DNA of 52,449 bases, taken from contig JANYJA010000103.1 in NCBI GenBank assembly GCA_025358575.1, forward strand, positions 1-52,449, read 5' to 3'. Below, piece by piece: positions 27,772 through 49,372 of the stretch (its first letter is position 1; every line of letters starts with the position of its first letter). Origin of the DNA: Terriglobia bacterium (GTDB lineage: Bacteria > Acidobacteriota > Terriglobia > Bryobacterales > Bryobacteraceae). The translations under genes were made by a program, and so were the position numbers. The notes below the pieces were generated by a model. The model saw nothing but the letters and a program-made list of their open reading frames with translations, was not told where the DNA came from and made no database searches.

Positions 27772-29604
27772 ATGCTTACGTTCCTCTTGCGCTTTTTGTT
27801 TTTAGCTTTATTCTGCCTTGCGGCTTGGGCCGAGCCGATTAAACTTCAAGTTCTCTCCAACGTTCCGTCGCCGCAGCCAGTCGGCACTAGCATCGGGCTT
27901 CAGTCTCGGATCGAGAAGATGAAGAGGATTAAGTACGTGTTTCAATACAGTGCCAGCGTCAACGGCGGGGCGTACCATGTCATTCGAGACTTCAGTCAGG
28001 ATTCTTCTTTCATCTGGACGCCGCCTCTTTTTGAGCACCAAGCTCAAGTGCGGCTCGCGGTGAAGAATGACGCCGGCGAAACCGGGGAAGCGGTGCTCCC
28101 ATTTCGCATTTTGTCGCGACTCAAGAATTCCGTGACGCCCACGGGCCATCCTCTCGTCGCGTTATTCAGCGCGCCTCCCTGCCCCGAGAATAGCCAGATC
28201 CGCGTGGCATTTCGCACCGCCGAATCTTCCAAGGCTAGTTCGACCCCCTGGGAGGGCTGCCGCGGCGGTGTAGGCAATAATCTTTACGTGGCCGGGATGC
28301 GCGCGGACACCGCGTATCAAATGCGGGCGGAAGTGCTCGGCGGATCGAAAGTAGTCGGCGGCGATTGGTTGTCTTTTCACACGGGCCTCCTTGATGGTAA
28401 TTTCCCATTAGTCACAACCACCAAGGCCGCCGCCAAAATGAGCGACATGAGCGAGCCATTTCTGGTGCATAGCGTGGTGAACGAAACTTTTCCCCGATCT
28501 CTGGCAACGGACTTGGATGGCAACATCGTCTGGTATTTGCGGCAAAACGCTTTCATGACACGAATGGTGAAAGGGGGCCATTTTCTGTCGCTGTCGGATG
28601 GAACTAACTCTGTCAACGACATGCACCGGCTGCAGATACTCCGGGAGTTCGATCTAGCCGGAAACGTGGTTCGGGAAACTAACATTGGCCGAGTAGCGGA
28701 GCAACTGGAATCGCGTGGAATCAAGTCCGGTTGCAAGAAGGGAGGGGAAGAGTGCGTGGACAGCTTCCATCATGAAGCTATTCGTCTGACTAACGGCCAT
28801 ACGTTAGTAGTGGCTGGTTTGGAGCGAATGTTTCCCGCGGGCACACAGGGCGCTAAGGAGCGTGTAGATGTGATCGGCGATCTCGTCATCGATCTCGACG
28901 AAGACTTGCAAGTAAAGTGGGTCTGGAATGCGTTCGACTATCTGGACCTAAAGAGACCCTCTCTCGCCGACGAGAAGTGCAAAATCGGGCCTGGGGACGA
29001 CGGCTGTCCGGCGGTGTTTTTGGCCGATACCGGCAACGGCTGGCTGCACTCCAACTCTCTGAACTATGTGCCCTCCGATGGCAGTCTACTGCTCTCGATG
29101 CCCGAGCAAGATTGGGTCATTAAAGTTGATTATCAAAATGGCGCTGGATCGGGAAAGGTCCTATGGCGGTTGGGTGAGGGGGGCGATTTCACTGTAAAGT
29201 CTAACGATCCCGACCCTTGGTTTTCCTACCAGCATGACGCGGGGTTCGAGCCGGTCGGTTCCGACATGCTTTCCCTGATTGACGATGGACATGCACGCAA
29301 GAAAAAACATCCGGAAGCAAACAACCGGGGGCAAGTTTGGAAGCTGGATGAGAAAGCCAAAACCGCGGAGCTCGTTTACAATGCCGATCTCGGCGTCTAC
29401 TCTTTCGCGGTAGGTTCCGCGCAAAAGCTTTCGAACGGCGGGTATAGCTTTGAGGCGGGCTTGCTGAATCCCGGCCCGGGAATGTTTGCGCGTGCGATTG
29501 AAACGTCCGCTGACGGTAAAGTCGCGTATACACAGCAATTAGACGGCATGATTGTATATCGAAGCTTTCGCGTTGCCGATCTTTATTCAGCGCCGACGAA
29601 GTGA
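27772..29604 (+). CDS. Aryl-sulfate sulfotransferase-like protein, copy 1
   Basis: A 610-residue exported protein with signal peptide FLLRFLFLALFCLAAWAEP. An N-terminal Ig-like part is followed by an ASST-type six-bladed propeller: ATDLDGNIVWYLR, REFDLAGNVVRETN, SFHHEAIRLTNGHTLVVAG (candidate catalytic His region), LVIDLDEDLQVKWVWNAFDYLD, WLHSNSLNYVPSDGSLLLSMPEQDWVIKVDY and WRLGEGGDF. ASST enzymes transfer sulfate between phenolic compounds in the periplasm. It is followed 4 nt later by a close paralog. Activity is inferred. Confidence 0.85.
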   Translation: MLTFLLRFLFLALFCLAAWAEPIKLQVLSNVPSPQPVGTSIGLQSRIEKMKRIKYVFQYSASVNGGAYHVIRDFSQDSSFIWTPPLFEHQAQVRLAVKNDAGETGEAVLPFRILSRLKNSVTPTGHPLVALFSAPPCPENSQIRVAFRTAESSKASSTPWEGCRGGVGNNLYVAGMRADTAYQMRAEVLGGSKVVGGDWLSFHTGLLDGNFPLVTTTKAAAKMSDMSEPFLVHSVVNETFPRSLATDLDGNIVWYLRQNAFMTRMVKGGHFLSLSDGTNSVNDMHRLQILREFDLAGNVVRETNIGRVAEQLESRGIKSGCKKGGEECVDSFHHEAIRLTNGHTLVVAGLERMFPAGTQGAKERVDVIGDLVIDLDEDLQVKWVWNAFDYLDLKRPSLADEKCKIGPGDDGCPAVFLADTGNGWLHSNSLNYVPSDGSLLLSMPEQDWVIKVDYQNGAGSGKVLWRLGEGGDFTVKSNDPDPWFSYQHDAGFEPVGSDMLSLIDDGHARKKKHPEANNRGQVWKLDEKAKTAELVYNADLGVYSFAVGSAQKLSNGGYSFEAGLLNPGPGMFARAIETSADGKVAYTQQLDGMIVYRSFRVADLYSAPTK

Positions 29605-29608
29605 GTTC

Positions 29609-31447
29609 ATGTATTCACGCATTCTTTGTCTAACTTTTTTCTGCCTCGCGGTTTGGGCCGAGCCGCTTAAGGTTCAACTTCTCTCAAGTGTGCCTTCGCC
29701 ACAAGCCGTAGGCACCAGTGTCGGGTTATTGCCGCGGATTGAGAACCCCCAAAAGGGAACGTATGTCTTTCGCTATAGCGTCAGCGTGAACGGCGTTGCG
29801 TTCCATGTGGTTCGAGATTTCAGCCAAGCTGCCGCTTTTGTTTGGACTCCGATGCTGTTTGAACATGATGCGAGCGTGCGCCTCACGGTAAGAAACAATG
29901 AAACTCGGGAAACAATAGACGCGGACCTGCCCTTTCGCATCGTTTCGCGTGTCAAAAATTCGGGAGCGGTAGTCTCACCCACTTCCCATCCGCTCGTTGC
30001 TCTCTTCAGTGCCCCCGCATGCCAGGAGGGCAGTCAGATTCGAATTACTTTGCGGGCTTCCGAGTCTTCGCCGACCAGTCATACTTCGCTTCAGCCGTGC
30101 CGGGGGACAGTTAGCACGAATGTCTATGTCGCGGGCATGCTCGCGGATTCCGTCTATCAGATGCGGGATGAAGTGGTCACGAAGTCCGGAATAAAGTCCG
30201 GCGACTGGAAAACTTTTCACACTGGCATTTTGGACGGAAATTTCATGCCTGTCAGTGTTCCGGTACCTGCGCCTTCCGGCCGCGTAGTGGCTGAACCTGT
30301 TTTAGTGCATAGCGTAGCCTCGATCAGCGGCCAGATGCGGCCTTTCGCGACTGATCTTGACGGAAACATCATCTGGTATCTGCGCCAACCTGCGTTTCTC
30401 ACGCGAATGGTTCCGGGAGGAAAATTCCTCGCGCTCTCCGAGGGCGCCAACTCCGCCAACGATATGCAGCGTTTGCAACTCGTGCGCGAATTCGACCTCG
30501 CGGGCAATGTCCTGCGGGAGACGAACATAAGCCGCGTTGCCGAACAGCTTGATTCGCGCGGTATCAAGTCGGACTGCAAAAAAGGCGGTGAAGAGTGCGT
30601 GCCCAGCTTCCATCATGAAGCGGTTCGATTAGCAAATGGCCACACCCTGGTGCTGGCAGGCATTGAGCGCATGTTTCCGGCTGGCACTCAGGGCGCCAAG
30701 GAGCGCATCGATATTTTGGGCGACCTGATTATCGATCTCGATGAGGACCTTCAAGTGGCCTGGGTCTGGAATTCGTTCGATTATATGGATTTGAAGCGGG
30801 CTTCGCGGGCGGATGCCAAGTGTAAGATCGGACCCGGCAGCGGTGGCTGCACCGCCATATTTCTCGCGGACTCCGCCAATGGATGGCTTCACAGCAACTC
30901 GCTCAATTATGTGGCATCCGACGGGAGTCTGCTCATCTCGATGCCGGAGCAAAACTGGGTGCTAAAGGTTGACTATCAAAACGGCAAAGGCAGCGGCAAA
31001 GTGATCTGGCGGCTCGGCGAGGGTGGCGATTTTGCGGCGAAAAGCGCCGATCCGGAGCCGTGGTTCTCATTCCAGCACGACGCGGGATTCGATCCGCCGG
31101 GCTCAAACTTTTTTTCGATTCTCGATGACGGCCACGAGCGCAAAAAAAAGAATGCTGCAGCCAATAATCGCGGCCAAGTTTGGAAGCTTGACGAGAAGAC
31201 CAAAAGTGCGGAATTGATCTACAATGCGGATCTTGGTATCTACTCGATAGCCGTAGGTTCGGCGCAGAAGCTCGCCAGTGGGGGTTATAGCTTCGAGGCC
31301 GGTTTCATTAACCCGGGACCGTCTCCATTTGCGCGCGCCGTGGAAACTTCGGCGGAAGGCAAGGTTGTTTATATTCAACAGGTGGACGGAGCGGTCGAGT
31401 ATCGCACTTTCCGCGTTACGGATCTCTATTCCGCTCCTTTAAAGTAA
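29609..31447 (+). CDS. Aryl-sulfate sulfotransferase-like protein, copy 2
   Basis: A 612-residue paralog of the preceding gene, alignable along its full length, including signal peptide YSRILCLTFFCLAVWAEP and the SFHHEAVRLANGHTLVLAG, WLHSNSLNYVASDGSLLISMPEQNWVLKVDY and WRLGEGGDF segments. The middle (between the N-terminal domain and the propeller) is the most divergent. The ATG at 29609 matches the paralog's start; a longer frame from 29552 overlaps copy 1. The pair is a tandem duplication followed by divergence, and both copies are intact. Substrate differences cannot be seen. Confidence 0.85.
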   Translation: MYSRILCLTFFCLAVWAEPLKVQLLSSVPSPQAVGTSVGLLPRIENPQKGTYVFRYSVSVNGVAFHVVRDFSQAAAFVWTPMLFEHDASVRLTVRNNETRETIDADLPFRIVSRVKNSGAVVSPTSHPLVALFSAPACQEGSQIRITLRASESSPTSHTSLQPCRGTVSTNVYVAGMLADSVYQMRDEVVTKSGIKSGDWKTFHTGILDGNFMPVSVPVPAPSGRVVAEPVLVHSVASISGQMRPFATDLDGNIIWYLRQPAFLTRMVPGGKFLALSEGANSANDMQRLQLVREFDLAGNVLRETNISRVAEQLDSRGIKSDCKKGGEECVPSFHHEAVRLANGHTLVLAGIERMFPAGTQGAKERIDILGDLIIDLDEDLQVAWVWNSFDYMDLKRASRADAKCKIGPGSGGCTAIFLADSANGWLHSNSLNYVASDGSLLISMPEQNWVLKVDYQNGKGSGKVIWRLGEGGDFAAKSADPEPWFSFQHDAGFDPPGSNFFSILDDGHERKKKNAAANNRGQVWKLDEKTKSAELIYNADLGIYSIAVGSAQKLASGGYSFEAGFINPGPSPFARAVETSAEGKVVYIQQVDGAVEYRTFRVTDLYSAPLK

Positions 31448-45455: not shown

Positions 45456-45782
45456 ATGGGCTGCGGCAGTGGTGGGATGAATCTTTCGACGATAGCTCCA
45501 GCTAACGGGCACAAAGTGTTCTGTGTGAAGTTCCAGAAGGAGATGCCCGGCCTGGATGAAATTCCGTTTGAAGGACATCCGCTCGGACAGAAGGTTTACG
45601 ACAATGTCTCGAAAGAGGCCTGGAAATTGTGGGTCGAGCACATGAAGATGCTCATGAACGAGTACCGCTTGAACTTGGGCACCGCCGAAGCCCAGGAATT
45701 CCTCATTAAGCAGATGGACGACTATTTCTTCGGCGCGGGGGCAGCTTTGCCGGAAGGCTACGTTCCGCCGCAATCGAAATAA
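45456..45782 (+). CDS. YggX-like Fe(II)-trafficking/oxidative-damage protection protein
   Basis: A 108-residue protein whose core matches YggX: KVFCVKFQKEMPGLDEIPFEGHPLGQKVYDNVSKEAWKLWVEHMKMLMNEYRLNLGTAEAQEFLIKQMDDYFF. YggX protects Fe-S enzymes and moves iron; the Cys in VFC is the conserved one. The N-terminus is about 16 residues longer than usual and Cys/Gly-containing (MGCGSGG); ATG at 45477 would give a form closer to the family. It converges with the ATP-grasp gene, with adjacent stop codons. A supporting role for nearby radical SAM/Fe-S enzymes (three in 5 kb) is a possible link. Confidence 0.8.
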   Translation: MGCGSGGMNLSTIAPANGHKVFCVKFQKEMPGLDEIPFEGHPLGQKVYDNVSKEAWKLWVEHMKMLMNEYRLNLGTAEAQEFLIKQMDDYFFGAGAALPEGYVPPQSK

Positions 45783-47027
45783 TTATTGGACCACTGCCAG
45801 CGTAGTGGCGATCTGAAATTCCAATCTTTTGTGCGCTTCGCGAAGCGCATGGTCCACCTGCTCGGCGAACACGCCGTGTGCAAAAATGAAGCCCAGATAA
45901 CTTGCCCCTTCGGGCAACGGCTCCAGAATCTGCCCCACCTTCGCCGTGATAATTAATTCGTGAACGCCTCTTACGTCGCGCGCGAACTCTTCCCCGCGGA
46001 CACCGTTGTAGGTGCCACCGTGCGGAATTGGAATCATCATCACTCCGGAAGCCGCATCCATCAGGGTGGGCGAAGGGATTGTCGAACCGATGGCATGGCA
46101 CACAATCAGCTCCTCCAGCGACAGGTCGCCCTCAAAGCGCAGCACCTTGCTGCACAGTCCGCCAATCGGGCGTGCCGCAACTTCCAGCATCCAAACGCCG
46201 TCTTCGTTTACGCGCATCTCGGCGTGAATGGGACCATGCCGCAGTCCGAGGGCGCGAACCGCGGCACGGGCGGTCTCTTCAATCGCCACTTGTACTTCCG
46301 AATCTTCGCGCGACGGAGTTACGTAGATTGTCTCTTCGAAATACGGTCCATCCAGGGGATCAGGCTTATCGAAGATTGCGAGAACTTCCAATTCACCCCC
46401 GGTCACCAACCCTTCGAGCGCGAATTCGCGCCCTGGGATGAAGGTCTCGACCTGCAAATATCGGCTCTGGTCTTCCTGAAAAATTTGGATCCGTGGATCG
46501 GCTAGAAGTTTGCGAATGCGCTCGAACGCCGCGATGAATTCCGCCTTGTTGTCAGCCCGAATCACTCCCCGGCTGGCCGAAAGCCCGAGCGGCTTTAGCA
46601 CACAGGGATACTTGGCCCAATAGGCCGCCTGCTCGGGAGAGTCACTCAAAGGAACACGAAAGTGTGCTGGCACCAGCAGGTCAGCTTTGGCAAGCATCGT
46701 TCGTGAAAGATGTTTGTCGCGGCACGCCTCCACGGCGGCAAGTGGATGAAACGCGAGTCCCAACAGTTCCGCGGCACGGGCGGCCACGACGGCGGCGCGG
46801 TCCCCGACAGCCACAATGCCATCGAACGGACCTTCCGCGGCGATCCTCTCCGCAGCACCGGCGACCTCGCCGAAGCGAATGGCGATTGCCTGGTCGCCCC
46901 AGGGGTCGTCAAGAATGTGGCACCGGTCCGTGGCCAGAACGGGCACGAGGTCCAGCCGCCGCGCCGCATCGGCGAATGCGCGCGTCTGGTAGCCGGTAGT
47001 GGCGGCAACAATGAGGAGACGCTTCAA
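45783..47027 (-). CDS. ATP-grasp carboxylate-amine ligase-like protein
   Basis: A 414-residue ATP-grasp protein. A preATP-grasp Rossmann part (RLLIVAATTGYQTRAFADAARRLDLVPVLATDRC) leads to the ATP-binding core: DKHLSRTMLAKADLLVP, YPCVLKPLGLSASRGVIRADN, VETFIPGREFALEGLV, GPIHAEMRVNEDGVWMLEVAARPIGGLCSKVL. These resemble L-amino-acid ligases and carboxylate-amine ligases that join an acid to an amine via acyl phosphate. TTG at 47027 is the start, 15 nt after the true end of the upstream selenoprotein radical SAM gene. Substrates unknown; a joint pathway with the radical SAM enzyme is inferred. Confidence 0.85.
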   Translation of the reverse strand: MKRLLIVAATTGYQTRAFADAARRLDLVPVLATDRCHILDDPWGDQAIAIRFGEVAGAAERIAAEGPFDGIVAVGDRAAVVAARAAELLGLAFHPLAAVEACRDKHLSRTMLAKADLLVPAHFRVPLSDSPEQAAYWAKYPCVLKPLGLSASRGVIRADNKAEFIAAFERIRKLLADPRIQIFQEDQSRYLQVETFIPGREFALEGLVTGGELEVLAIFDKPDPLDGPYFEETIYVTPSREDSEVQVAIEETARAAVRALGLRHGPIHAEMRVNEDGVWMLEVAARPIGGLCSKVLRFEGDLSLEELIVCHAIGSTIPSPTLMDAASGVMMIPIPHGGTYNGVRGEEFARDVRGVHELIITAKVGQILEPLPEGASYLGFIFAHGVFAEQVDHALREAHKRLEFQIATTLAVVQ

Positions 47028-47042
47028 AATAGTAGATCCCGT

Positions 47043-48386
47043 TTATACAAGAGCAACCTGCTCTTCAGTGGGCTCGGCTCAACAGTACCAAGGCTCCGTC
47101 AAATACGGCACGGTGGCCCGCGCCGCAAGATGGAAATCCATCCCACGCTCGCCGCCAAAAGCCAGCTTCCAGATTCTCTCAAAGGTCTGGCTACGCGATT
47201 CGCTCGTCGTTTTCTGAACCACGCGTTGCACCGCGACGCAAAGGGCATCGACATCCGGGTCCTCGTGCTTCCATCGGTAGCACAGCGCCTCGGAATCAAA
47301 CTCCGGTGCCGCCCGACGGATTTCGTCGAGTTCCATCAGCCGCGACCCCGCGGGGAGCAGCAGCCGGATACCCAACTGAATCGGAGCGGTGCTTTCAATC
47401 AGATCCAGATCAGTGATGCACTGCAACAGCTCGCGATAACTGGCGCGGGTCGTCCAGGGCGTAAAGGGCAGAAACGTTGGCGAGACTTGCAGAGCCGCTC
47501 CACGAGTCAGGCGCAGCGCCTCGACAAAATCCGCGCGCGTGTGACCCTTATCCAGCTTTTCCAGAACCGCATCATCCACTGATTCAACGGCACTCACGAT
47601 GAACAGGCACCCCGTCGTTTTCAGCGTCCGCAAAAATTCGCGATGTTTAAGCAGATGTTCGATCTTGATGGTTACGTCATAAGTAACTTTAGGAAATTCC
47701 GCGTGTAACTGGTCCACCAGCGGAATAGCGTGTCCAATTCCGTTGAAAAAGTCAGGATCGCCAAACGTAATGTGTTGCGCGCCGGCCAATACCTGCTGTC
47801 GAATGTCGGCCATCACCACATCCGGCTGCACCACGCGGAACACCCCGTTATAAACCGGCACGATCGGGCAGTGGCGGCACAAATGCTTGCACCCTCGCGA
47901 TGCCTCCGTGTAACCCACGGTTTTGCGGACGCCGTCGTCCATCAAACCCGCGTAGTTGCCAAGCGAAGGCAACCCGGTCCGATCCGGCAAGATAAATTGT
48001 TGCCGGGCGAGAGACAAGAATACCGGCGCTAGTCCCCGCGCTACATCGCACAAGCCCTGTTCGAACTCGCCACCTATGATAAACTCAACGCCAAGCCCGC
48101 GCAAATAGGGCTCGTTCATGGGCGCGTACAGCCCGTAACAGCAAAGCTTCGCGGCCGGATTCGCCTTCCGAACCCTCGCGATCACCGGCACGGCAAGGCG
48201 AGTGGCGGTATGCATCGGCAGATGAAACGCGACGAGGTCCGCCGACGACACTTCATCGCCCAGAACGCCGCAGGAAAGATCGGCCACGGTGACCCGATGC
48301 CCGTCCGACCGAAGCCACGCCGCAGGCGAAGCTAAGCCGAAAGGCTGGCGGCCTAAGTCGAACGTAGATAGGAGAATGATCCGCAC
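47043..48386 (-). CDS. Radical SAM selenoprotein with CUAEP tail
   Basis: A 447-residue protein if the in-frame TGA at 47079-47081 is read as selenocysteine. Residues 1-130 form a B12-binding-like Rossmann domain (RIILLSTFDLGRQPFGLASPAAWL, SADLVAFHLPMHTATRLAVPVI). The radical SAM core has C166-x3-C170-x2-C173 (RGCKHLCRHCPIVPVYNG) and GDPDFFNG. After TEPWYC the codons TGT-TGA-GCC-GAG-CCC give C-U436-A-E-P, then TEEQVALV and TAA at 47043. From memory, a radical SAM family is named for this CUAEP/CCAEP tail, and its reaction is not known. GTG at 48386 is the start. Stopping at TGA would yield a 435-residue product lacking the conserved tail. Divergent from nadA (56 nt). Confidence 0.85.
47049..47065 (-). 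promoter_or_regulatory. SECIS-like hairpin for selenocysteine insertion
   Basis: On the coding (minus) strand, AAGAGC-AGGTT-GCTCTT forms a perfect 6-bp stem with a 5-nt loop. The stem starts 13 nt, and the loop 19 nt, after the UGA, within the spacing used by bacterial SECIS elements. The loop AGGUU on a GC-closed stem closely resembles the SelB-binding AGGUCU loop of E. coli fdhF mRNA. It lies inside the codons for the post-Sec residues. Confidence 0.75.
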
Positions 48387-48442: not shown

Positions 48443-49372
48443 ATGTTGGCCACCCAAACCATCACTGAAGAAATTCTCGAACTCAAGAAGGACCGCCGCG
48501 CCCTCCTTCTGGCCCACCACTATCAGGAAGCCGAGATCCAGGATCTCGCCGATATCGTTGGCGATAGCCTTGAGCTGGCGCGCAAGGCCCGCGACTTCCA
48601 GGGCGACGTCATCGCTTTCTGCGGCGTGTGGTTTATGGCGGAAACGGCGAAGGTCCTGAATCCGGACCGCATAGTGATTGTGCCCGACAAAGCGGCGAGC
48701 TGCAGTCTGGTCGAAAGCTGCCCGATCGAGCCTATTCGCGAATATCGCCGACGCAATCCGGATCATGTCATCGTCAGCTACATCAATACTTCCGTGGAGG
48801 TGAAGGCCGAGAGCGATATTCTCTGCACCTCGCGCAATGCGGTGCAGGTTGTGAACTCCATCCCGCCAGACAAGACCGTTCTGTTCCTGCCGGATCGCAA
48901 TCTCGGAAATTACGTCAAGAAGCAGACTGGAAGACAGAATATGAAAATCTGGCAGGGCACTTGCATCGTGCATGCCACGTTCCCGGTGCGTCGCGTTCTG
49001 GATGCGATGGCGGAGCATCCACAAGCTATCGTGGTGGCGCATCCCGAGTGTCCCGAGACCGTTCTCGCCCAAGCGGAATTCATTGGCTCCACTTCCGCCC
49101 TGATAGACTACTGCGTCAACAGCCCCGCGCAGGAGTTTATTGTAATGACAGAGAGCGGCGTCAACTATTCGCTCCAGAAAAACGCGCCGTCGAAAAAGTT
49201 TTATTACGTCAATAACGAAAACTGCAATTGCAGCGAATGTCCCTACATGCGTCTCAACACGCTCGAAAAGCTTCGAGACGCTCTTATAAATTTAGAACCG
49301 CGTGTTGAAATTTCGGGCGACCTGCTGCGCCGCGCTCTCGTTCCCATTGAGCGAATGCTGGCGGTGCGGTGA
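48443..49372 (+). CDS. nadA: Quinolinate synthase A
   Basis: A 309-residue [4Fe-4S] enzyme condensing iminoaspartate with dihydroxyacetone phosphate to quinolinate for NAD synthesis. Family motifs: LLAHHYQEAEIQDLADIVGDSL, FCGVWFMAETAKVL, PDKAASCSLVESCP (Cys87), NTSVEVKAESDILCTSRNA, WQGTCIVH (Cys174), HPECPETV, GSTSALIDY, TESGVNYSL and NCSECPYMRLNTLEKL (Cys266). The three cysteines match known cluster ligands in spacing. nadB and nadC are not in the window. It overlaps moaA by 4 nt (GTGA). Confidence 0.95.
   Translation: MLATQTITEEILELKKDRRALLLAHHYQEAEIQDLADIVGDSLELARKARDFQGDVIAFCGVWFMAETAKVLNPDRIVIVPDKAASCSLVESCPIEPIREYRRRNPDHVIVSYINTSVEVKAESDILCTSRNAVQVVNSIPPDKTVLFLPDRNLGNYVKKQTGRQNMKIWQGTCIVHATFPVRRVLDAMAEHPQAIVVAHPECPETVLAQAEFIGSTSALIDYCVNSPAQEFIVMTESGVNYSLQKNAPSKKFYYVNNENCNCSECPYMRLNTLEKLRDALINLEPRVEISGDLLRRALVPIERMLAVR

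Follow-up and report, generated by a model that had tools for sequence, protein, structure and literature searches.

A predicted selenocysteine-containing radical SAM protein of the CUAEP/CCAEP-tail family in a Terriglobia genome, its exchangeable tail pair and its gene neighbours

The NCBIfam collection holds a curated family, NF040546 (rSAM_CUAEP), named 'CUAEP/CCAEP-tail radical SAM (seleno)protein'. A literature search under the family names gave, in the portions of text that it covered, no paper on rSAM_CUAEP; work by Haft and co-authors may treat it. In passages of a review on prokaryotic selenoproteins from 2026 (PMC13188914) the string NF040546 does not occur. Among characterised families the closest is ArsL, an enzyme of arsinothricin biosynthesis that uses a 3-amino-3-carboxypropyl group from SAM, according to passages of PMC8552651 and PMC12159101; the arsQML pathway appears in a passage of the former as three genes. 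Among solved structures, the closest in fold and in sequence is AprD4, a radical SAM dehydratase (PDB 6fd2).

The window analysed here is a stretch of 52,449 nucleotides from a Terriglobia bacterium (Acidobacteriota; contig JANYJA010000103.1). On its minus strand it carries a gene with the following features.

47043..48386, minus strand: putative rSAM_CUAEP selenoprotein gene, GTG start (48386) to TAA stop (ending at 47043), 447 aa with Sec436; matches NF040546
47868..47891, minus strand: radical SAM CX3CX2C motif, C166/C170/C173; PF04055, invariant columns in family alignments
47070..47084, minus strand: C-U-A-E-P tail pentapeptide, residues 435-439, from the frame reading and family alignments
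47079..47081, minus strand: in-frame TGA, almost certainly read as Sec (U436); TGA, TGC and TGT exchange at this alignment column

Up to the TGA the frame encodes 435 aa ending in TEPWYC; past it, AEPTEEQVALV follows before a TAA, for a total of 447 aa. The preliminary description had reported this continuation of the frame as UAEPTEEQVALV, and coordinates and translation agree with it. It had also given CUAEP as the tail that names a radical SAM family, which is indeed NF040546. The window protein scores 591.4 bits against this profile (cut-off 500), aligns with positions 1-467 of 468, and has in TEPWYC-U-AEP the C-U/C-A-E-P tail that the family requires, with the TGA inside the tail. It shows no difference from the family; some Chloroflexota relatives above the cut-off, however, end in UUAEP or UCAEP, forms missing from the family name. 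Because the match is full length and above the curated cut-off, the selenoprotein is of a kind already known. The term 'hidden', in the sense of unknown, is not supported: the family was already curated. What is added to the family name is Sec at the first position of the pair, frequent interchange of Sec and Cys, an ATP-grasp partner, and iron and Fe-S neighbours.

Pfam finds Radical_SAM (PF04055) alone in the window protein, at 37.4 bits (cut-off 29.5). The AlphaFold2 model of A2 has a mean pLDDT of 91.3, with a low-confidence tail (mean 63 for residues 431-440). In the PDB its fold is matched best by AprD4 and by radical SAM enzymes of the cobalamin type, so the predicted structure supports a radical SAM fold. 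AprD4 comes first (E 6.5e-18, TM-score 0.67-0.70) and is also the top PDB sequence match, but identity in the fold alignment is 19 per cent.

How close is the protein to ArsL? ArsL (NF040542) is its second-ranked NCBIfam family, but the score of 248.2 bits is far below the cut-off of 450, and the window protein lacks the RCCLKC tail. A tblastn search of plasmids gave 18 matching records; identity to the ArsL-type matches H2-H17 is 28-34 per cent, and CX3CX2C and a C-terminal vicinal Cys pair are common features. Two of these ArsL proteins end in KRCCLKC; the alignment puts CC opposite CU, but with a gapped region ahead of it, so that homology of the residues is not proven. In the two ArsL-type loci viewed (L187 and L188) an ATP-grasp gene lies about 2.3 kb upstream, and its product is a distant relative of the window's ATP-grasp protein (about 23-27 per cent).

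The kinship with ArsL, the vicinal pair that ends both kinds of protein and the ATP-grasp gene near both raise the alternative of an arsenic enzyme, whose Cys-Sec pair would bind As(III) and whose product would be an arsenic amino acid. The gene neighbourhood argues against this, as does the score far under the ArsL cut-off. When 12 proteins of the two ArsL clusters were compared with 143 CUAEP loci by tblastn, the ATP-grasp protein matched in 70 loci and ArsM in two, both weakly; ArsR, ArsI, ArsN1 and aquaporin had no match in the 143 loci, the search being confined to the proteins of these two clusters. We consider an arsenic enzyme decidedly improbable, and an arsenic function deduced from the neighbourhood was set aside as unsupported, since the arsenic genes of ArsL clusters are nearly absent near CUAEP loci. 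As an observation on the plasmids themselves (Priestia and Alicyclobacillus), L187 and L188 carry, beside arsenic genes, the ATP-grasp gene and a carboxymuconolactone decarboxylase-family gene, neither of which belongs to the three-gene arsQML pathway.

A sample of the window's phylum (396 genomes, the window's own among them) yields 61 with an NF040546 match above the cut-off. In the Chloroflexota class to which locus L146 belongs, 35 of 298 sampled genomes have a match, 34 of them above the cut-off. The phylum set consists of 66 loci (matches above the cut-off together with partial matches), and the tail motif is readable in 61. One of these, L020, has an in-frame TAG further upstream in the gene and was retained in the count; among loci without the motif, L021/L174, L031, L064 and L065 are cut or missing it, and L061 appears by eye to have an altered frame at the tail.

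Is the TGA simply a stop, with the protein ending at Cys435 and the CUAEP frame a relic? Standard gene calling ends the protein there, and so does a listed coding sequence of Thermomicrobium roseum, a record that bears out the preliminary description's statement that gene calling truncates such proteins. The tail, however, is conserved as protein across genes with either codon type, and Cys codons stand at the same column: the 61 readable tails of the phylum divide into 51 with TGA (the window included) and 10 with TGC. In a second collection, the best 80 of at least 565 relatives from genome_contigs, 76 tails have 58 TGA, 14 TGC and 4 TGT, codon shares that are biased since the Cys tail served as one of the two patterns searched for; the remaining four have TGA at the first position of the pair (UU or UC). 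Homologs with Cys at the Sec site, the check that had been proposed, thus amount to 10 of 61 and 18 of 76 tails. The phylum and second sets overlap in part (same or close loci), and one exact duplicate was removed before tree building.

The stretch just past the TGA also bears on the matter.

47049..47065, minus strand: candidate bSECIS-type hairpin, 6-bp stem AAGAGC/GCUCUU, loop AGGUU, 13 nt past the UGA

The hairpin had been described in these terms and is reproduced, an alternative count being 7 bp with loop GGU. In folding energy the 61-nt stretch past the UGA does not stand out (z 0.16; 112 of 200 shuffled versions fold equally well or better), and this measure carries no signal, so the evidence for the hairpin rests on comparison across relatives. 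For this, 135 of the 139 motif-bearing tails were used, four being duplicates or too short; the stem was scored in two fixed registers against 500 synonymous-codon recodings. Of the 108 Sec genes, 83 have a stem of at least six pairs, against an average of 3.9 and at most 10 for the recodings; the count is 0-6 when the registers are slid by 3 or 6 nt. Only 2 of 27 Cys genes have such a stem (null mean 0.4, maximum 4). The 25 Sec genes below six pairs in the fixed registers include some with a shifted or bulged hairpin, as judged by eye. Across an alignment of 60 sequences, pairing holds in 88.9 per cent of cells, and four of six stem pairs show base changes on both sides, a result matched by 5 of 500 shuffles; the covariation score is 0.327 versus 0.187 for shuffled sequences (none of 500 reaches it) and at most 0.237 for slid registers. 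From these comparisons, Sec genes retain a putative bSECIS hairpin past the UGA, with base changes on both sides of the stem, whereas most Cys genes lack it. L055 and L057, the tails of genomes G327 and G263, read CUSEPL followed by TAG; here the hairpin lies beyond the stop, outside the coding sequence.

The preliminary description had proposed a search for selA, selB, selC and selD, and all four are present in the window's own genome. Profile searches give 308.8 bits for selB, 483.5 for selA and 364.1 for selD, and tRNA-Sec scores 70.6 bits (Rfam) with anticodon tca by ARAGORN, i.e. UCA. The selD gene (L075, contig 196) itself contains an in-frame TGA (context AAGUASK) and encodes a second probable selenoprotein. 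A survey of 64 genomes, 61 with a readable tail (51 CU, 10 CC), finds selB above cut-off in 48 of 51 CU versus 5 of 10 CC genomes (Fisher p 0.0019, kinship ignored). With a limit of 55 bits, tRNA-Sec is found in 45 of 51 versus 5 of 10 (Fisher p 0.012, kinship ignored), a contrast that depends on this limit, which is our own choice, because Rfam's cut-off of 47 bits passes most CC genomes too: at 47 bits 60 of 64 genomes have a match, the ones that miss it are two CC and two CU genomes, and there is no clear contrast. The exceptions among CU genomes, 3 of 51 without selB above cut-off and 6 of 51 without a 55-bit tRNA-Sec, have a completeness of 75-97 per cent. The selB gene was found above cut-off in all seven additional genomes searched, namely those of L142, L146, L148 and L149 and three more.

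A true stop at the TGA is exceedingly improbable in view of the conserved tail, the hairpin retained mainly in Sec genes and the presence of the Sec machinery. Decoding of the TGA as Sec appears almost certain from the comparative evidence. Very probably, the window gene as a whole is a Sec-containing member of NF040546, in which SelB, tRNA-Sec and the hairpin decode the UGA to give a 447-aa radical SAM enzyme with Cys435-Sec436 near its end. Sec status appears secure enough for gene models to be corrected, as these otherwise drop the residue most likely to do the chemistry. The T. roseum coding sequence (TGA at L186:9369-9371) is a case in point of nomenclature: it is named CUAEP/CCAEP-tail radical SAM protein and is modelled without its name-giving tail.

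The tail pair varies in both positions. Three Chloroflexota loci have two consecutive TGA codons and read WYUUAEP (L146:9372-9377, L148:7553-7558 and L149:9354-9359), and in two others, L142 (WYUCAEP) and L256, only the first codon of the pair is TGA. Among 30 loci of the Chloroflexota class, 28 are CU, one UC and one UU, the last being from L146's own genome. Wording for adjacent Sec residues is absent from the papers among the matches listed in a literature search. In a rapidly built tree with 137 rows of the family and two ArsL, the four UU/UC rows form one side of a branch with support 83. At the second position this tree needs at least 16 changes between Sec and Cys, and the group I CC label requires 14, of which 10 are forced by well-supported branches. 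Sec and Cys thus seem to swap often at the tail pair, as far as the tree of these sequences can tell.

What surrounds the gene? In the window the neighbours are as follows.

45456..45782, plus strand: YggX-type Fe(2+) trafficking/oxidative damage protection gene, convergent; PF04362, NF003817; a recurrent neighbour
45783..47027, minus strand: L-amino acid ligase-type ATP-grasp gene, 15 nt downstream; PF13535, PF18603; the commonest family partner
48443..49372, plus strand: NadA quinolinate synthase, divergent neighbour; TIGR00550, 350 bits
49369..50373, plus strand: MoaA, a second radical SAM enzyme, adjoining NadA; TIGR02666, 374 bits

The ATP-grasp gene begins with TTG at 47027; 51 nt separate it from the TGA and 15 nt from the TAA, so the shortening of the gap by read-through, as previously pointed out, is reproduced. 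Among solved structures, the ATP-grasp protein is closest to L-amino acid ligase BL00235 (PDB 3vot; E 2.8e-37). A profile built from 48 of the CUAEP loci themselves shows, for 105 group I loci with enough DNA, an ATP-grasp gene that follows immediately on the same strand in 62, lies elsewhere in 14 and is not seen in 29. For the 21 loci of group II, which have tails of the RLTExWFCU kind, it is elsewhere in 13 and not seen in 8. The same profile has no match in 39 control stretches.

Neighbour counts are from profile searches; counts of longest open reading frames were dropped, as these can be in the wrong frame, e.g. an antisense frame over YggX. Within 4 kb of the gene in 139 loci there are YggX in 55, Nfu in 33, aconitase in 20, a POT peptide symporter in 18 and NadA in 10. 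Nfu lies upstream on the same strand in 25 of its 33 loci, and these are from MAGs named as several phyla. Of the 139 loci, 98 have at least one of YggX, Nfu, aconitase and NadA inside this 4-kb range, versus 1 of 39 control stretches (an aconitase), a comparison that is not a measure of significance because the profiles were chosen for recurrence, many loci are related and the controls (351 kb in all) come from genomes of the window's phylum alone. PALP/CBS and aminotransferase genes were set aside as a neighbour signal, being present in 2 and 1 of the 39 controls. Pfam tallies are led by NifU (7), Fe-S_biosyn (6) and ATP-grasp_4 (4) in 16 non-acidobacterial loci (71 of 88 called proteins), and by ATP-grasp_4 and LAL_C2 (10 each) in group II, followed by NifU, PALP and CBS at 4 each (64 of 86 proteins). 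In the 30 Chloroflexota-class loci, which are outside the profile set, 8 have YggX on the same strand, 39-129 nt ahead of the gene; the flanks up to 1.5 kb have ATP-grasp in 2, PALP/CBS in 1 and Nfu and the rest in none. None of nine neighbour profiles matches the flanks up to 1.5 kb in 21 of these 30 loci, nor do the nine match at the UU/UC loci L142, L146, L148 and L149. Taken as a whole, the gene neighbours point to iron-sulphur metabolism.

The neighbouring aconitase was also considered as a self-resistance copy. Of 17 genomes, 14 have one AcnA match above cut-off and 3 have none; one or no match per genome therefore favours housekeeping copies in general, and that candidate was rejected. 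Genomes G265, G132, G169, G263 and G327 have weaker aconitase-family matches on the CUAEP contig, and there a self-resistance copy is conceivable.

These elements can be assembled into a putative mechanism. SAM would be cleaved at the CX3CX2C cluster to give a carbon radical, by analogy with what is proposed for ArsL, where it is the 3-amino-3-carboxypropyl radical. The C-terminal Cys-Sec pair (Cys-Cys, Sec-Cys or Sec-Sec in relatives) would hold or reduce a soft acceptor atom, and the ATP-grasp ligase encoded next to the enzyme might then join the resulting unusual amino acid to another one. The recurrence of YggX, Nfu, aconitase and NadA near the gene suggests a part in iron and Fe-S upkeep for the product or for the cluster of the enzyme itself. 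A radical transfer as in ArsL, with a soft acceptor at the tail and a tie to Fe-S upkeep, is at best a tentative proposal.

Two other functions compete with it. The enzyme might insert sulphur (or selenium) in the manner of lipoyl synthase, with a consumed cluster rebuilt by Nfu and the Cys-Sec pair handling sulphur or ligating a second cluster. NfuA serves lipoyl synthase, and the frequency and same-strand upstream position of Nfu near CUAEP genes are consistent with this idea, but Nfu is found in none of the 30 Chloroflexota-class loci. The CX3CX2C cysteines and the tail pair are invariant, and C260 is so in one family alignment but not in another, few invariant cysteines for a normal auxiliary cluster. 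Sulphur insertion appears quite unlikely. Alternatively, the pair could be purely redox, re-reducing the enzyme or shielding its cluster from oxidation around otherwise ordinary radical chemistry. The occurrence of CC, CU, UC and UU, the frequent Sec/Cys exchange and the YggX neighbours favour such a role; but the conserved motif is the whole of W-Y/F-C-U/C-A-E-P rather than the pair alone, and ArsL ends with a comparable pair. We regard a solely redox function as unlikely, if a little less so than sulphur insertion.

In a wider version of the radical transfer proposal, a widespread pathway that uses selenium would maintain iron and Fe-S clusters. In it, the CUAEP enzyme with its swappable pair (CC, CU, UC or UU) would produce an unusual amino acid, the ATP-grasp protein would convert this to a dipeptide, and the YggX, Nfu, aconitase and NadA products would be beneficiaries or suppliers of clusters. 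This wider scheme is speculative and on the doubtful side. If it is true, the tandem Sec-Sec tail would be a naturally occurring active site in which a diselenide could form. The kinship with ArsL, the ATP-grasp partner and the iron and Fe-S neighbours offer concrete function hypotheses for the CUAEP family.

Elsewhere in the window, at 27772-31447 on the plus strand, there are two large tandem open reading frames of 610 and 631 aa that are similar by eye and may be paralogues.
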